NCBI RefSeq assembly: GCF_900114315.1
Contig: NZ_FOSQ01000003.1
Location: 62,001-126,000 of the forward strand
Source of the DNA: Falsiroseomonas stagni DSM 19981
GTDB taxonomy: Bacteria > Pseudomonadota > Alphaproteobacteria > Acetobacterales > Acetobacteraceae
Direction: 5' to 3'
Length of the DNA: 64,000 nt
Each line of letters begins with the position of its first letter. The first letter of the stretch is position 1. The notes under the pieces are model-generated. The model was not told the DNA's origin, ran no database searches, and worked only from the letters and a program-made list of their open reading frames with translations. Made by a program: the position numbers and the translations under genes. This document shows positions 1 to 38,186 of this stretch, piece by piece.

Positions 1-972
1 CGCCAGGCCGGGCGGTACCTGCCGGAATACCGGGAGGTGCGGGCCAAGGCCGGCGGCTTCATCAACCTCTGCACGACGCCGGAGATGGCGGCGGAAGTCA
101 CGCTGCAGCCGATCCGCCGCTACGGCATGGACGGCGCGATCCTGTTCTCCGACATCCTCATGGTGCCCTGGGCCATGGGCCAGGGGCTGCGCTTTGCCGA
201 GGGCGAAGGGCCGGTCCTCGACCCGATCCGCGATGCCGCGGGGGTGGCGGCGCTGGAGCTCGAGAAGGTGCGCGAACGCGCGGCGCCGATCTTCGAGACG
301 GTGCGCCTGACTCGCGCGGCGCTCGACCAGCATGCCAACAAGGTCACCCTCATCGGCTTCGCCGGCAGCCCCTTCACGGTGGCCTGCTACATGGTGGAGG
401 GGCATGGGTCGAAGGATTTCCACACCGCCCGCGGCATGGCCTTCAACGACCCGGCGCTGTTCGGCCGGCTGATCCGCACCCTGGTCGATGCCACCATCGA
501 CTACCTGCTGGCTCAGGCGGAAGCGGGGGCCGAGGTGCTGATGCTGTTCGACAGCTGGGCCGGCATGCTGCCCCCCAGCCAGTTCCGCCGCTGGGTCATT
601 GAGCCCACCGCGACGATCGTGCGGGCGCTGAAGAAGCTGCATCCCTCCATCCCCATCATCGGCTTCCCGCGCCTGGCGGGGCCGCTGATCGGCGAATATG
701 CGCAGCGCACGGGGGTGAACACGGTGGCGATGGACACCGCCATGGACCCGCGCTTCGCGGCTGCCACCGTGCCGGCCAATGTCGGCCTGCAGGGCAATCT
801 CGACCCGCTGGCGCTGATCGCCGGCGGCGCGGCGCTGGAGGCGGAGGCGCGGCAGATCCTGGCGGCCATGCGCGGCCGGCCCTTCGTCTTCAACCTGGGC
901 CATGGGATCGAGAAGATCACGCCGACCGAGAACGTCGCCCAGCTCGTCCGGATCGTCCGTTCAGGGGGCTGA
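1..972 (+). CDS. hemE: uroporphyrinogen decarboxylase, 5' end missing
   Basis: Decarboxylates the four acetate side chains of uroporphyrinogen III to give coproporphyrinogen III in cytoplasmic haem synthesis. The frame is open from base 1. It begins with RQAGRYLPEYREVRAKAGGF, the family signature that normally lies about 20-30 residues from the N-terminus, so only a short 5' piece is lost beyond the left edge. The catalytic-Asp segment LFSDILMVPWAMG, then GFAGSPFTVACYMVEG, FDSWAG and a C-terminal NLGHGI are all present in family order. The gene ends 12 bases inside the convergent mltA gene. In Caulobacter and Rickettsia hemE sits beside the chromosome origin, so the origin may lie just left of the window; that is inference. 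Identity is very secure. Confidence 0.97.
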   Translation, partial: RQAGRYLPEYREVRAKAGGFINLCTTPEMAAEVTLQPIRRYGMDGAILFSDILMVPWAMGQGLRFAEGEGPVLDPIRDAAGVAALELEKVRERAAPIFETVRLTRAALDQHANKVTLIGFAGSPFTVACYMVEGHGSKDFHTARGMAFNDPALFGRLIRTLVDATIDYLLAQAEAGAEVLMLFDSWAGMLPPSQFRRWVIEPTATIVRALKKLHPSIPIIGFPRLAGPLIGEYAQRTGVNTVAMDTAMDPRFAAATVPANVGLQGNLDPLALIAGGAALEAEARQILAAMRGRPFVFNLGHGIEKITPTENVAQLVRIVRSGG

Positions 973-3890: not shown

Positions 3891-4361
3891 ATGTCCGACC
3901 AGACCGCCAATCCGAACGGCACCATGCCGATCCAGCTCAACATCCAGTACACCAAGGACCTGTCCTTCGAGGTGCCGGGCGCGCCGGAGATCTTCGTCTC
4001 CCTGAAGGAACAGCCGCGGGTGGACCTCGCGCTCGATGTCCAGGCGCGGCCGGTCGAATCCGGCGGCAATGTCTATGAGGTGTCGCTGCAGATCCGCGCC
4101 GATGCGAAGGTGGGGGAGACCCCCTGCTTCATCGCCGAGCTCGCCTATTGCGGCGTCTTCACCATCAATGTGCCGCAGGAACACCTGGAGCCGGTGCTGC
4201 TGGTGGAATGCCCGCGCCTGCTCTTCCCCTTCGCCCGCAACATCCTGGCGGATGTGACGCGCGATGGCGGCTTCCCGCCGGTGCTGCTGGCGCCGATCGA
4301 TTTCGTGGCCCTGTGGCAGAGCCGCCGCGGCCCGAACGCGCAGCAGGACGGCACGGCCTGA
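3891..4361 (+). CDS. secB: protein-export chaperone SecB
   Basis: A 156-residue cytoplasmic chaperone that holds preproteins unfolded and delivers them to SecA. Family blocks are clear: IQLNIQYTKDLSFEVPGAP near residues 15-35, VDLALDVQ, YEVSLQIRADAKV, and the hydrophobic-groove segment AYCGVFTINVPQEHLEPVL, with LLFPFARNILADVTRDGGFP and PVLLAPIDFVALW at the end. The size matches the family. The ATG at 3891 sits just before the conserved start. lnt begins 4 bases after the stop, so the two are likely co-transcribed, which groups envelope and export functions. Confidence 0.96.
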   Translation: MSDQTANPNGTMPIQLNIQYTKDLSFEVPGAPEIFVSLKEQPRVDLALDVQARPVESGGNVYEVSLQIRADAKVGETPCFIAELAYCGVFTINVPQEHLEPVLLVECPRLLFPFARNILADVTRDGGFPPVLLAPIDFVALWQSRRGPNAQQDGTA

Positions 4362-29222: not shown

Positions 29223-30230
29223 GTGTACACCCAGGCCCTGAACCAGAAGGATGTCGCACCCGCCACGGCTTCGGCGGAGGATCCGGAGCGCCTGGCGCGC
29301 TTCGAGGCGCGGGTGGCGGCCGAGGACAAGATCGAGCCGAATGACTGGATGCCGGAGGCGTACCGGCGGACGCTGACGCGGCAGATCAGCCAGCACGCCC
29401 ATAGCGAGATCGTCGGCATGCTGCCGGAGGGCAACTGGATCACCCGCGCGCCGTCGCTGCGCCGCAAGGCCGCGCTGCTGGCCAAGGTGCAGGATGAGGG
29501 CGGGCACGGGTTGTACCTGTATGCCGCCGCGGAGACGCTGGGCACGTCGCGCGAGGCGCTGGTCGAGCAGTTGCTGAGTGGCCGCGCGAAGTATTCGTCG
29601 ATCTTCAACTACCCGACGCTGACATGGGCCGATATCGGCGCGATCGGCTGGCTGGTGGATGGCGCGGCGATCATGAACCAGATCCCGCTCTGCCGGACGA
29701 GCTACGGCCCCTATGCCCGCGCCATGGTGCGCGTGTGCAAGGAGGAGAGTTTTCACCAGCGCCAGGGCTACGAGATCATGCTGACCTTGGCGCGCGGCAC
29801 GGCGGAACAGAAGGCGATGGCGCAGGATGCGCTGGACCGGTGGTGGTGGCCCGCCTTGATGATGTTCGGCCCGCCGGATGGGGAGAGCGCCCATACCGAC
29901 CAGTCCATGCGCTGGAAGATCAAGCGATTCACGAATGACGCGCTGCGCCAGCAATTCGTCGATGCGACGGTGCCGCAGGGCCATTTTCTTCAGTTGACCT
30001 TCCCCGACCCCGAACTGCGCTTCGACGAGGCGAGCGGGCATTGGCAGTACGGCGCCATCGACTGGGAGGAATTCCGGCAGGTGCTGGCTGGGAACGGGCC
30101 GTGCAACCGGGAGAGGCTTGAGGCGCGGCGAAAGGCGCATGCGGAAGGCGCCTGGGTGCGGGAAGCGGCGCTGGCCCATGCGGCGAAGCGCCGCGCGCGC
30201 CGGGCCGCCGAGCGCCAGGCGGCGGAGTGA
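29223..30230 (+). CDS. paaA: 1,2-phenylacetyl-CoA epoxidase catalytic subunit A
   Basis: A 335-residue di-iron subunit that inserts one oxygen atom into the aromatic ring of phenylacetyl-CoA. Iron ligand motifs are [17 protein letters not shown] and [13 protein letters not shown], and an early [19 protein letters not shown] is typical of PaaA. Length matches the family. It starts on GTG at 29223 after a strong GAGGAGG. It is the first gene of paaABCDE; paaB starts 5 bases after the stop. Electrons come from PaaE, and PaaC is the structural partner. The thioester ligase paaK and the downstream ring-opening genes are not in the window. Confidence 0.96.
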
Positions 30231-30235
30231 GCGCG

Positions 30236-30523
30236 ATGAGCGAAACCCCCATGCCCATCTGGGAAGTTTTTGTGAGAGCCCGCGCCGGCCTGGCGCATCG
30301 CCATGCCGGCAGCGTGCATGCGGCGGATGCGGAAATGGCGCTGCAGGCGGCGCGGGATACCTATACGCGGCGTGGCGAGGGGCTGTCGCTCTGGGTCGTG
30401 CCCTCCGCCGCCATCACGGCGAGCGATCCGGCGGATCGGGATTCGCTGTTCGAGCCGACGGCGGACAAGATCTATCGCCATCCCACCTTCTACGAGGTGC
30501 CCGACGATGTCGGGCATATGTAG
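30236..30523 (+). CDS. paaB: phenylacetyl-CoA epoxidase subunit PaaB
   Basis: A 95-residue small subunit that helps bridge the PaaAC core with the reductase. Family pattern: PIWEVFVRARAGLAHRHAGSV, then MALQAARDTYTRRGEGLSLW and KIYRHPTFYEVPD. ATG 30236 has GGAG 8 bases before it; a GTG at 30227 overlapping the paaA stop is an equally simple alternative. It is followed 3 bases later by paaC. Confidence 0.93.
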   Translation: MSETPMPIWEVFVRARAGLAHRHAGSVHAADAEMALQAARDTYTRRGEGLSLWVVPSAAITASDPADRDSLFEPTADKIYRHPTFYEVPDDVGHM

Positions 30524-30526
30524 GCC

Positions 30527-31285
30527 GTGACCAGCATCGCGGTCGCGGCCTCGCCGCTGGTGGAGGCGCTGCTGGCGCGGGCGGATGACGCGCTGGTGCA
30601 TGCGCATCGCCTGTCCGAATGGTGCGGCCATGCGCCGATGCTGGAGGAAGATCTGGCGCTGGCGAATGTCGCGCTGGATCTGCTCGGCCAGGCGCGATCG
30701 CTGTATCAGTATGCGGCGGAGGTGGAGGGCGCGGGACATGGCGAGGATGACCTCGCCTATCGCCGCGACGCGCCGCAATTCCGCAACGCGCTGATCTTCG
30801 AACTGCCGCGCGGCGATTTCGCGGAGACCATCGCCCGCCTTTTCTTCTCCAGCGCCGTGATGCTGCCCTGGTGGCAGGCGGCGATGACCTCCCCCGATGC
30901 ACGCATCGCCGCCATTGCGGCGAAGGCCGAGAAGGAGATCACCTACCATCTGCGCCATGCCGGGGAATGGATGATCCGGCTCGGCGACGGGACGGATGAG
31001 AGCCATGCCCGCATGGCGGCGGCGGTGGCGAAGCTGTGGCCCTATACCGGCGAACTCTTCGCGGCGGAGCATGAGACCATCGCCGCGCTGCTGCCCGATG
31101 CCGCGGCGCTGCGCCCGGCCTTCGAGGCGACGGTCGCGCGCGTCTTCGCCGAGGCGGGGCTGGAACGCCCGCGCGCTGGCTGGATGCAGAAGGGCGGGCG
31201 CCGCGGCGTGCATACCGAGCATCTCGGCCACATGCTCGCCGTGATGCAGCATCTGCAGCGCGCCTATCCCGGGGCGGTGTGGTGA
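30527..31285 (+). CDS. paaC: phenylacetyl-CoA epoxidase structural subunit PaaC
   Basis: A 252-residue ferritin-like subunit without a catalytic iron centre that forms a heterodimer with PaaA. Typical segments: HRLSEWCGHAPMLEEDLALA, NVALDLLGQARSLYQYAAEVEG, AKAEKEITYHLRHAGEWM and a C-terminal GGRRGVHTEHLGHMLAVMQ. It starts on GTG (30527). The stop overlaps the paaD start region (GTGA), so translation is coupled. Confidence 0.95.
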   Translation: MTSIAVAASPLVEALLARADDALVHAHRLSEWCGHAPMLEEDLALANVALDLLGQARSLYQYAAEVEGAGHGEDDLAYRRDAPQFRNALIFELPRGDFAETIARLFFSSAVMLPWWQAAMTSPDARIAAIAAKAEKEITYHLRHAGEWMIRLGDGTDESHARMAAAVAKLWPYTGELFAAEHETIAALLPDAAALRPAFEATVARVFAEAGLERPRAGWMQKGGRRGVHTEHLGHMLAVMQHLQRAYPGAVW

Positions 31286-31776
31286 GCGTCGTCACGCTCG
31301 ACCTGGCGCGCATCCGCGCGGTCGCGGGCGCGGTGGTGGATCCGGAGATTCCCGTGCTGACCATCGCCGATCTCGGCGTGCTGCGCGATGTGCGCGTCAG
31401 CGACGGCGCGGTCGAGGTCGATATCACGCCGACCTATTCGGGCTGTCCCGCGATGAACGTGATTGCCTTCGAGGTCGAGGCGGCGCTCGCCGCGGCGGGT
31501 TTTCCCGGGGCGCGCGTGCGGCTGGTGCTCTCCCCGGCCTGGACGACGGATTGGATGACGCAGGCGGGTCGGGATGCGCTGCGCGGCTATGGCATCGCGC
31601 CGCCGGCCGCCCGCGCCGGGCGCCGCGCGCTGTTCGGCGCCGATGACGACACCCCCTGCCCGCGCTGTGGCAGCCTGGCCACGGAAAAGCTCTCGGAATT
31701 CGGCAGCACGGCCTGCAAGGCGCTGTGGCGCTGCACTGCCTGCCGCGAGCCCTTCGACCAGTTCAAATGCCTGTAG
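31282..31776 (+). CDS. paaD: PaaD, iron-sulfur assembly-type accessory protein
   Basis: A 164-residue protein with an N-terminal MIP18/DUF59 domain (VDPEIPVLTIADLGVLRDV, then YSGCPAMNVIAF) and a C-terminal zinc ribbon with cysteine pairs CPRC and CTAC plus a final KCL. It is thought to assist metal-cluster assembly of the epoxidase complex or its reductase. It starts on GTG, either 31282 (overlapping the paaC stop) or 31279. paaE follows after 10 bases. Confidence 0.93.
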   Translation: MSVVTLDLARIRAVAGAVVDPEIPVLTIADLGVLRDVRVSDGAVEVDITPTYSGCPAMNVIAFEVEAALAAAGFPGARVRLVLSPAWTTDWMTQAGRDALRGYGIAPPAARAGRRALFGADDDTPCPRCGSLATEKLSEFGSTACKALWRCTACREPFDQFKCL

Positions 31777-31786
31777 CGAGGCGCCG

Positions 31787-32866
31787 ATGAACGCCGTGTC
31801 CGCCCGCTTCCATCCGCTGCGCGTGGTCGATGTTTCCCGTGAAACAAACGATGCCGTCGCCATCACGCTGCAGCCGCCGCCGCAGGCCGATTTCCGCTTC
31901 ACGCCGGGGCAGTACCTGACCTTCCGGCGCGTGGTGGACGGCGTCGAGCAGCGGCGCAGCTATTCCATCTGTTCGGGCCTTGATGACGGGACCTTGCGCG
32001 TCGGCATCAAGCGTGTCGCGGGCGGCGTCTTCTCCGGCTGGGCCGTCGATCACCTGAGGCCCGGTGAGGTGCTGGAGGCGATGGCGCCGGAAGGCCGCTT
32101 CGGGCTGATGCCGGATGCGGCGGCGGCCCCGCGGACCGTGCTTGGGATCGCCGGTGGCAGCGGGATCACGCCGATCCTCTCCATCGCCGCCAGCCTGCTG
32201 GCGCGCGAACCCCGCGCGCGCTTCGTGCTGCTCTATGGCAACCGCGACGCCGCCGGGATCATGTTTCGTGAATCGCTGGAACGGCTGAAAGACCGGTACC
32301 TGTCGCGTCTCGTCATCACGCATGTGCTGAGCCGGGAGAAGCATGAGCTGAGTGCGCTGCATGGGCGCCTCGACGCCGCGCGCATCACGGCGCTGCTGCC
32401 GGGGCTGGTGCGGGTCGGCGCCATCGACGCCGCCTTCCTCTGCGGGCCGGAGGGCATGGCCGAGGGCGCACGCTTGGCGCTGGAAGGGCTCGGCCTGGAC
32501 CCCGCGCGCATCCAGGAGGAACGCTTCGCGCCGGCCGCCGGCAGCCCGCCCCGCGCGCTTCCCGTGGCGGCCGCGGAAGCCCCGCCGGCGGCGGTCGCGA
32601 CCATCACGGTGGATGGCGTGACGCGGGACGTGCCGATGGCATCAGGAGAATCGGTGCTGGAAGCCGGGCTGCGCGCGGGGCTGGACCTGCCCTGGTCCTG
32701 CCGCGGCGGCATGTGCTGCACCTGCCGCGCCAAGGTGACGGAAGGCGCGGTCGCGATGGCGACCAACTACTCCCTCCAGCCCTGGGAGACGGAGGCCGGC
32801 TTCGTGCTGACCTGCCAGTCCCGGCCGACCGGCGCCACCGTCGCGGTCGATTACGACGCCAGCTAG
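31787..32866 (+). CDS. paaE: phenylacetyl-CoA epoxidase reductase PaaE
   Basis: A 359-residue electron-transfer subunit that passes electrons from NADPH to the epoxidase. The FAD domain has YSICSGLDDG, the NAD(P) domain has GIAGGSGITPILSIAASLL and AFLCGPEGM, and the C-terminal plant-type ferredoxin domain has Cys ligands in PWSCRGGMCCTCRAK and FVLTCQSRP. ATG 31787 is used, following GAGG; frames upstream of it overlap paaD. A parS-like 16-mer lies in codons 15-20. The stop overlaps the convergent LysR gene by 4 bases, marking the operon end. Confidence 0.95.
   Translation: MNAVSARFHPLRVVDVSRETNDAVAITLQPPPQADFRFTPGQYLTFRRVVDGVEQRRSYSICSGLDDGTLRVGIKRVAGGVFSGWAVDHLRPGEVLEAMAPEGRFGLMPDAAAAPRTVLGIAGGSGITPILSIAASLLAREPRARFVLLYGNRDAAGIMFRESLERLKDRYLSRLVITHVLSREKHELSALHGRLDAARITALLPGLVRVGAIDAAFLCGPEGMAEGARLALEGLGLDPARIQEERFAPAAGSPPRALPVAAAEAPPAAVATITVDGVTRDVPMASGESVLEAGLRAGLDLPWSCRGGMCCTCRAKVTEGAVAMATNYSLQPWETEAGFVLTCQSRPTGATVAVDYDAS
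31831..31846. promoter_or_regulatory. candidate ParB-binding parS site within paaE
   Basis: TGTTTCCCGTGAAACA differs from the universal parS 16-mer TGTTTCACGTGAAACA at one position. It encodes VSRET using GTT, CGT, GAA and ACA, all ending in A or T, in a gene whose other codons nearly always end in G or C. This suggests selection on the DNA sequence itself. It is 6 kb from dnaN and about 31 kb from hemE, both often near alphaproteobacterial origins. Confidence 0.65.
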
Positions 32867-36924: not shown

Positions 36925-38052
36925 TCACACCCGCATCGGCATCAGCACATAGAGCGCTTCCGGCTTGGCGCTGTCCGTCACGATCGTCGGCGCGGAGCCG
37001 TCGGAGAAGCGGAACTCCACCGTATCCGCGATCTGGTCGGTGATGTCGTTGAGGTAGCGGGCCTGGAAGCCGATCTCGATCGGCGCGTGCTCGTAGCTCA
37101 CCACATCGCCATCCAGCTCCTCCTGCGCCTGGCCGAGTTCGGCGCTGGCGGCGGAGAGCAGAAGGTGGTTGCGATCGACGCTGAGCTTCACAGGGCGCGA
37201 GCGTTCGCTGCTGATGCCGGCGACGCGGCCCACGGCCTCCGCGAAGGCCTTCTTCGTCACCTTCAGGATCTTGTCGTTGCCGCGCGGGATCACGCGTTCG
37301 TATTCCGGGAAGGTGCCGTCGATCAGCTTGGAGGTCAGCTGCACGGGGCCGAGGGTGAAGCGGATCTTGGTATCGGACAGCGCAATGGCGATCTCGTCCT
37401 GCACTTCCTCGGCCAGCTTGCGCAATTCGTTGACCGTCTTGCGGGGGATGATGACGCCCGGCATCTCCGACGCGCCATCGGGCAGGGGCTCCTCGACACG
37501 GGCCAGGCGGTGGCCATCGGTCGCGACCGCGCGCAGGACCTTCGCGCCGCCGGCTTCCGTCGCGTGGAAGTAGATGCCGTTGAGGTAGTAGCGCGTCTCC
37601 TCCGTGCTGATCGCGAAGCGGGTGCGGTCGATCAGTTCGCGGAGCTGCCCGGCGGGAAGGGCGAAGCGGTGGGGCAGCTTGCCCTCGGTCATCGAGGGGA
37701 AATCCTCGACCGGCAGGACGGCGAGCTTGGCGTCGAAGCGGCCGGCGCGGAGCGTCAGCTGGCTGTCGCCGCCGGGGTGGTCGAGTTCGATCTTCGCGGC
37801 CTCGGGCAGCTTGCGGACCAGCTCGAACAGGGTGGCGGCGGGGGCCGTGGTGCGGCCGGTGCGGGTGACGGTGACGCCCGGCACCTCCTCCACCACCGCG
37901 ATCTCCATGTCCGTCGCCGTCAGGCGCAGGCCGCCATCGCGGGCTTCCAGCAGGACATTCGCCAGGATGGGGATGGTGTTGCGCCGCTCCACCACGCTCT
38001 GCACATGCGCGAGCGCCTTGAGCAGCACTGCCCTGTCCACCGTGAACTTCAT
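36925..38052 (-). CDS. dnaN: DNA polymerase III beta sliding clamp
   Basis: A 375-residue protein that forms the dimeric ring tethering polymerase III to DNA. The N-terminus MKFTVDRAVLLKALAHVQSV, VVERRNTIPILANVLLEA, the middle VATDGHRLARVEEPLP and the final EALYVLMPMRV are all classic clamp signatures. ATG 38052 gives the standard MKFTV start; longer frames run into a palindromic repeat. dnaA and recF are not beside it, which is common in alphaproteobacteria, where these genes are dispersed near the origin. Confidence 0.97.
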   Translation of the reverse strand: MKFTVDRAVLLKALAHVQSVVERRNTIPILANVLLEARDGGLRLTATDMEIAVVEEVPGVTVTRTGRTTAPAATLFELVRKLPEAAKIELDHPGGDSQLTLRAGRFDAKLAVLPVEDFPSMTEGKLPHRFALPAGQLRELIDRTRFAISTEETRYYLNGIYFHATEAGGAKVLRAVATDGHRLARVEEPLPDGASEMPGVIIPRKTVNELRKLAEEVQDEIAIALSDTKIRFTLGPVQLTSKLIDGTFPEYERVIPRGNDKILKVTKKAFAEAVGRVAGISSERSRPVKLSVDRNHLLLSAASAELGQAQEELDGDVVSYEHAPIEIGFQARYLNDITDQIADTVEFRFSDGSAPTIVTDSAKPEALYVLMPMRV

Positions 38053-38080
38053 GGCACCCGATATCCCGACATTCTGAAGC

Positions 38081-38112
38081 GGCCCCGGGGCGGAGCCGCC
38101 CCCGGACCCCAT
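38081..38112. repeat. GGGGTCCGGGGG-type palindromic repeat, copy 3 (minus orientation)
   Basis: On the minus strand it reads GGGGTCCGGGGGCGGCTCCG, like copies 1 and 2. The arms CCGGGGCGG and CCGCCCCCGG pair with one bulged C. It sits in the leader of dnaN, between dnaN and the end of the agmatinase gene. Confidence 0.55.
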
Positions 38113-38186
38113 GGCCCCCGACAACGGACCCTACATAACAGGCCGGAATCGCTTGTTGAAGGCGGGGTTTTCCCCTGATTCCGGCA

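Follow-up and report, generated by a model that had tools for sequence, protein, structure and literature searches.

A one-mismatch parS-like palindrome inside paaE as a putative secondary chromosomal parS site in Falsiroseomonas stagni

Can the coding sequence of a catabolic gene carry a site for the chromosome-segregation protein ParB? The question is raised by a parS-like 16-bp palindrome, TGTTTCCCGTGAAACA, which begins at C24:93831 in the draft genome of Falsiroseomonas stagni DSM 19981 (G000; 6,384,459 bases in 44 contigs). The window analyzed here, a stretch of 64,000 nucleotides of that contig, includes this palindrome near the start of paaE, and an initial annotation of the window had read it as parS with one base changed. 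Comparison with parS TGTTTCACGTGAAACA confirmed a single mismatch. No other place in the window matches TGTTTCACGTGAAACA at three or fewer mismatches, and a shuffle control produced a match in 2 of 100 cases. The altered base (A7 to C) is half-site position 6 in ParB/Noc numbering. The 16-mer begins 44 nt past the first base of the gene and reads [GA]T GTT TCC CGT GAA ACA, so that paaE codons 15–20 are GAT GTT TCC CGT GAA ACA. Against TIGR02160 the host gene scores 412.0 bits, just under the model cut-off of 420.8. The features of the window are collected in Table 1.

Table 1. Coordinates of the paaE site and neighboring features in the window.
Feature	Window coordinates	Strand	Remarks
hemE	37-972	+	domain match from profile position 36
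secB	3891-4361		near the left edge of the window
paaA, paaB, paaC, paaD, remainder of the operon	29223-31776	+	
paaE, phenylacetyl-CoA epoxidase reductase subunit, host gene	31787-32866	+	TIGR02160
parS-like 16-mer TGTTTCCCGTGAAACA	31831-31846	.	right half GTGAAACA perfect; left half A7 to C
dnaN, DNA polymerase III beta subunit	36925-38124	-	5.1 kb from the paaE site

The initial annotation had also pointed to A/T-ending codons at the site within a gene of mainly G/C-ending codons, and the counts bear this out: among the 359 codons of paaE, 44 (12.3%) have A or T in third position, and three of the site codons are rare locally. Among 39,501 codons from 100 nearby predicted genes, GTT makes up 2.6% of Val, CGT 4.4% of Arg and ACA 2.9% of Thr codons, with GAA at 32.5% of Glu and GAT at 37.0% of Asp. 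Given the protein and the local usage, the joint probability of the five site codons (GAT, GTT, CGT, GAA, ACA) is 3.9e-6. A single synonymous substitution, TCC to TCA, would turn the site into a perfect parS; the three species with Ser at this codon do not use it, although TCA is itself rare in G000 genes.

Across the 6.38 Mb of the draft genome, only three places come within one mismatch of parS, two of them matching it perfectly (C24:31162 and C24:34416). Equal matches scattered randomly round the chromosome, which the initial annotation had named as evidence against its reading, were not what we found: all three lie within 63 kb on C24, the perfect ones near parA–parB. A third-order Markov model based on 146 kb of C24 gives an expectation of 0.007 one-mismatch sites in 6.38 Mb. 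With the reversed pattern as a control, no site at one or fewer mismatches was found in all 15 genus genomes, compared with 35 real sites; at two or fewer mismatches, the same genomes held 51 sites versus 2 control sites. At exactly two mismatches, G000 has a further site on each of C24 and C22, versus one control match.

At the family level, TGTTTCCCGTGAAACA is present in 5 of 299 sampled genomes, G000 included, in a sample that is without the genus members G001 and G007. Three of the four other carriers have their copy at most 18.5 kb from parA or another parS-like site. In G303 and G046, each from another genus of the family, the C7-variant 16-mer lies 15.3 kb (C3:151328, L151) and 18.5 kb (C21:51608, L153) from parA, respectively, and in G253 it lies 17.9 kb from another one-mismatch site. 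The 12-kb contig bearing the 16-mer in G127 has neither parAB nor a second such site. The G046 copy sits in an open frame likewise reading GTT TCC CGT GAA ACA.

The perfect parS pair of G000 is located just ahead of mnmE and at the mnmG–rsmG junction, followed by parA and parB, at a distance of 59–63 kb from the paaE site on the same contig. The parB gene (C24:35849-36706), ~57 kb from the paaE site, is the sole G000 match to ParB_N above the family cut-off, two others falling below it, and its product has ParB_N, HTH_ParB and ParB_C domains. Its specificity positions, read off alignments with a numbering offset of 10 inferred from matching Caulobacter residues, are R, T, G, G versus R, T, A, G in Caulobacter; judged by these residues, G000 ParB is of the parS type. 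A glycine (Caulobacter G201) faces the altered base, and an arginine is found at 173. The comparison facts on ParB, parS and Noc used here and below come from the accessible parts of PMC7383237, PMC5815017, PMC7333895, PMC4368675 and PMC10419367. According to these parts, half-site position 6 is one of two bases distinguishing parS from the Noc-binding site (NBS), and in the Caulobacter ParB structure G201, being without a side chain, cannot contact base -6 specifically.

paaE was detected (E <= 1e-40) in 9 of the 15 genus genomes, and four of these nine genes have a one-mismatch parS in the same codons: TGTTTCCCGTGAAACA in G000, G001 and G007, and the variant TGTTGCACGTGAAACA in G010. The G010 site differs from TGTTTCCCGTGAAACA at two positions, yet is one mismatch from parS, and is accompanied by an amino-acid replacement, Ala GCA for Ser TCC, so that paaE carries two different one-base variants of parS among the four species. 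The PaaE proteins of G001, G007 and G010 are 86–91% identical to that of G000. No site is present in the five other genus paaE genes (72–76% identical), which use other, mostly G/C-ending codons and whose proteins read [V/I]-x-R-E-T versus V-S-R-E-T at the site. Together with six genomes where paaE was not found, they make up the 11 of 15 genus genomes without the paaE site. In a FastTree phylogeny of MnmE, MnmG, ParA, ParB and RsmG, the four site-bearing genomes form one clade (support 1.000), with G004, G008, G012 and G014 as its sister clade; paaE was not found in these four genomes at E <= 1e-40. Among 80 paaE loci from public genomes, 78 have no site at two or fewer mismatches, and the two exceptions (L037 and L044) are those of G007 and G010, G000 and G001 lying outside the 80.

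At the site, all five synonymous columns are A/T-ending in all four species, versus 63 of 290 columns elsewhere, the latter being columns outside the site in which the amino acid is conserved and any A/T-ending codon occurs, from six genes of the four species. Another eight of the 14 genes contributed none, because one or more of the three relatives had sequence covering <90% of the gene. When GAT, GAA and CAT were left out, the rarer codons were kept in 3 of 3 columns at the site versus 13 of 168 elsewhere. Pairwise third-position identity of the four paaE genes ranges from 0.72 to 0.84, and the five synonymous positions of the site are unchanged. The relatives keep the site beyond the protein's need, in the four genomes of one clade; part of this conservation is shared ancestry, since the four species are close relatives.

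dnaN stands beside the paa operon in G000, G007 and G010: it adjoins paaE in G007, and the G010 region is colinear in blocks with C24:77.0-106.0 kb, dnaN included. In G001, colinearity with G000 stops at the end of paaE, dnaN was not found in the contig stretches examined, and the perfect pair lies 58 kb off on the same contig. In the five site-less genomes, long matches comprise the paa operon plus at most ~0.7 kb upstream where the contig reaches, with short hits elsewhere; the G006 contig in this comparison is only 7 kb. Since the long matches hardly pass the paa operon, the operon of these genomes is probably located elsewhere, and in G002 it lies 143 kb from the nearest parS. The simplest history would be a site born within the four-genome clade, the alternatives being transfer, or loss elsewhere.

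The position of the site relative to the replication origin was assessed from its neighborhood and GC skew. The neighbors listed in the initial annotation, hemE, mltA, secB and dnaN, are all present, with mltA also near the left edge of the window; hemE probably starts ahead of that edge, because its domain match begins inside the profile. GC skew on C24 is mostly negative to ~56 kb (positive at 20–32 kb), about zero at 56–68 kb and positive beyond. Since the skew changes sign around there, the probable origin region is near the hemE end of the window. Cumulated over 388 kb of G007, the skew is lowest at 741.8 kb; the paaE site lies at 702.7 kb, hemE at 734–735 kb and the two perfect sites at 763.4 and 766.6 kb, and the skew is mixed at 754–784 kb. 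The comparison with skew and parAB that the initial annotation had proposed thus places the skew minimum between the paaE site and the parAB/perfect-parS cluster. The site is therefore on the replichore opposite the parAB cluster, roughly 30–40 kb from the predicted origin (~39 kb from the skew minimum in G007; 31–32 kb from hemE in G000 and G007). At C24:55001-70000 we found four one-mismatch matches to the DnaA box TTWTNCACA and no exact one, and neither TTAA-N7-TTAA nor TTAACCAT; because no exact box was found in this interval of G000, the origin is placed by skew and hemE alone. The sole dnaA-family match of G000 (C22:223059-223559, L137) is on another contig than the hemE–dnaN–parAB region.

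Sites of this kind have precedents. In the accessible text of PMC4368675, nine of the ten Pseudomonas aeruginosa sites parS1–parS10 are predicted in coding sequences, eight are off the perfect palindrome, and ParB binds the ten in a graded way. Since coding-sequence and mismatched parS sites are already known from that species, the paaE site, which has both properties, is a further example in an unusually clear evolutionary setting. Unlike P. aeruginosa, for which the available text gives the consensus TGTTCCACGTGGAACA, G000 has its extra site within a catabolic operon, and the predicted origin lies between that site and parABS. The paaE site may be dispensable, because in P. aeruginosa, by the same text, ParB affinity drops when the CACGTG core is altered, and segregation is sustained only by the four high-affinity oriC-proximal parS sites.

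Caulobacter crescentus ParB shares R, T and the final G with G000 ParB (RTAG there, RTGG in G000), and the portions of the Caulobacter literature accessible to us describe an intact GTGAAA half, as in the paaE site. In those portions, however, the five strongest Caulobacter sites are confined to 5 kb of the left arm, whereas the G000 sites flank the predicted origin. The NBS of Firmicutes, as far as the available text describes it, has the A-to-C change at half-site position 6 that is also seen in the paaE site; in contrast to the NBS, the paaE site keeps guanine 1 and a whole right half of parS type, and Noc has Q and R where G000 ParB has R and G. A reading of the 16-mer as a Noc-binding site was rejected, given that only position 6 of one half is changed and ParB is of the R/G type. 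The open-licence literature yielded nothing on parS sites with Acetobacteraceae or with paaE, and among the matches listed no title or abstract start concerned a parS locus in paaE.

We consider it highly probable that the paaE 16-mer is a genuine secondary chromosomal parS. The proposal of a chromosome-segregation site in a catabolic gene is supported in silico by rarity, parAB linkage and conservation in three relatives. The putative parS is most likely bound by ParB, more weakly than the perfect pair; a role in segregation is less certain. A ParB dimer would load through the one perfect half-site and the one half altered where a parS-type ParB has no specific side-chain contact, probably with lower affinity than at the perfect pair, and would then spread over adjacent DNA. 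The site, which may have arisen within paaE in the four-genome clade, could provide an added loading point for ParB, and perhaps SMC, in the origin domain on the replichore opposite the parAB–parS cluster. More tentatively, and as a possibility that we regard with some doubt, a new centromere site may have been born in a catabolic gene near the origin, largely via codon choice, forming the sole ParB-loading site at two or fewer mismatches opposite parABS and held one base short of perfect to stay weaker than the main pair.

A different account would see in the 16-mer a product of drift that binds ParB weakly, persists chiefly through common descent and does not affect segregation; this account agrees with the genuine-parS reading on ParB binding and differs on function. 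The confinement of the site to one clade, with 11 of 15 genus genomes lacking it, and an Arg-Glu-Thr kept by the protein regardless suit such a history. We nonetheless find it rather unlikely, as the five synonymous positions stayed unchanged at a third-position identity of 0.72–0.84, rarer A/T-ending codons are seldom kept elsewhere (13/168), and G010 is still one mismatch from parS despite its two differences. It is improbable that bound ParB acts mainly on the paa operon, through local silencing or a roadblock by spread ParB, rather than in segregation. The site does lie at the start of paaE, and Caulobacter ParB, in the accessible account of tests in E. coli, spreads up to ~2 kb around a single parS; but the site is downstream of paaA–D and not at the operon start, and paaE genes outside the clade are without it. 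In P. aeruginosa, moreover, when 25 half-parS were mutated, the available text reports altered expression of only two genes beside mutated sites (67 genes changed in all).

That the 16-mer resembles parS by chance within a coding sequence, or serves a different protein, is scarcely credible. The frame V-S-R-E-T is near the [V/I]-x-R-E-T of the five other genus PaaE proteins, but those genes spell similar residues with other codons, 78 of the 80 public loci are without the site, 0.007 sites are expected per genome, and the site is linked with parAB; the genome-wide control, codon usage and the Markov expectation led us to reject chance and coding bias. A clade with the site, a sister clade without it and other paaE genes without it allow tests by synonymous mutations that leave the protein unchanged. 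The locus suggests that a metabolic gene can, through its choice of codons, hold a chromosome-segregation signal.

Two further parS-like sites were observed. Site A has two mismatches in G000 (C24:6939-6954; L014:6939-6954), is common to the four site-bearing genomes at 21–24 kb beyond the perfect pair, and falls in a minus-strand open frame with a tRNA_edit domain in G000, the genome in which the frame was examined. It is found in matching flanks of G001, G004, G007, G008, G010 and G013, with one mismatch in G004 and G008; in G004, G008 and G013 it is not at the distance from the perfect pair that the four genomes show. Site A is probably a second coding-sequence parS, of wider spread than the paaE site. 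Site B, a two-mismatch [G/C]ATTTCACGTGAAACA (C22:142905-142920; L018:9906-9921 in G000), recurs with homologous surroundings in the four genomes that carry the paaE site. Its distance from the perfect pair is 188 kb in G007 and 184 kb in G010; in G000 and G001, site B and the pair are on different contigs. The A that site B has at half-site position 1 is the second of the two Noc-type bases. Since sites A and B are common to the four, G000, G001, G007 and G010 each have five parS-like sites at two or fewer mismatches. All five share a contig in G007, and there the paaE site stands alone on its side of the skew minimum.
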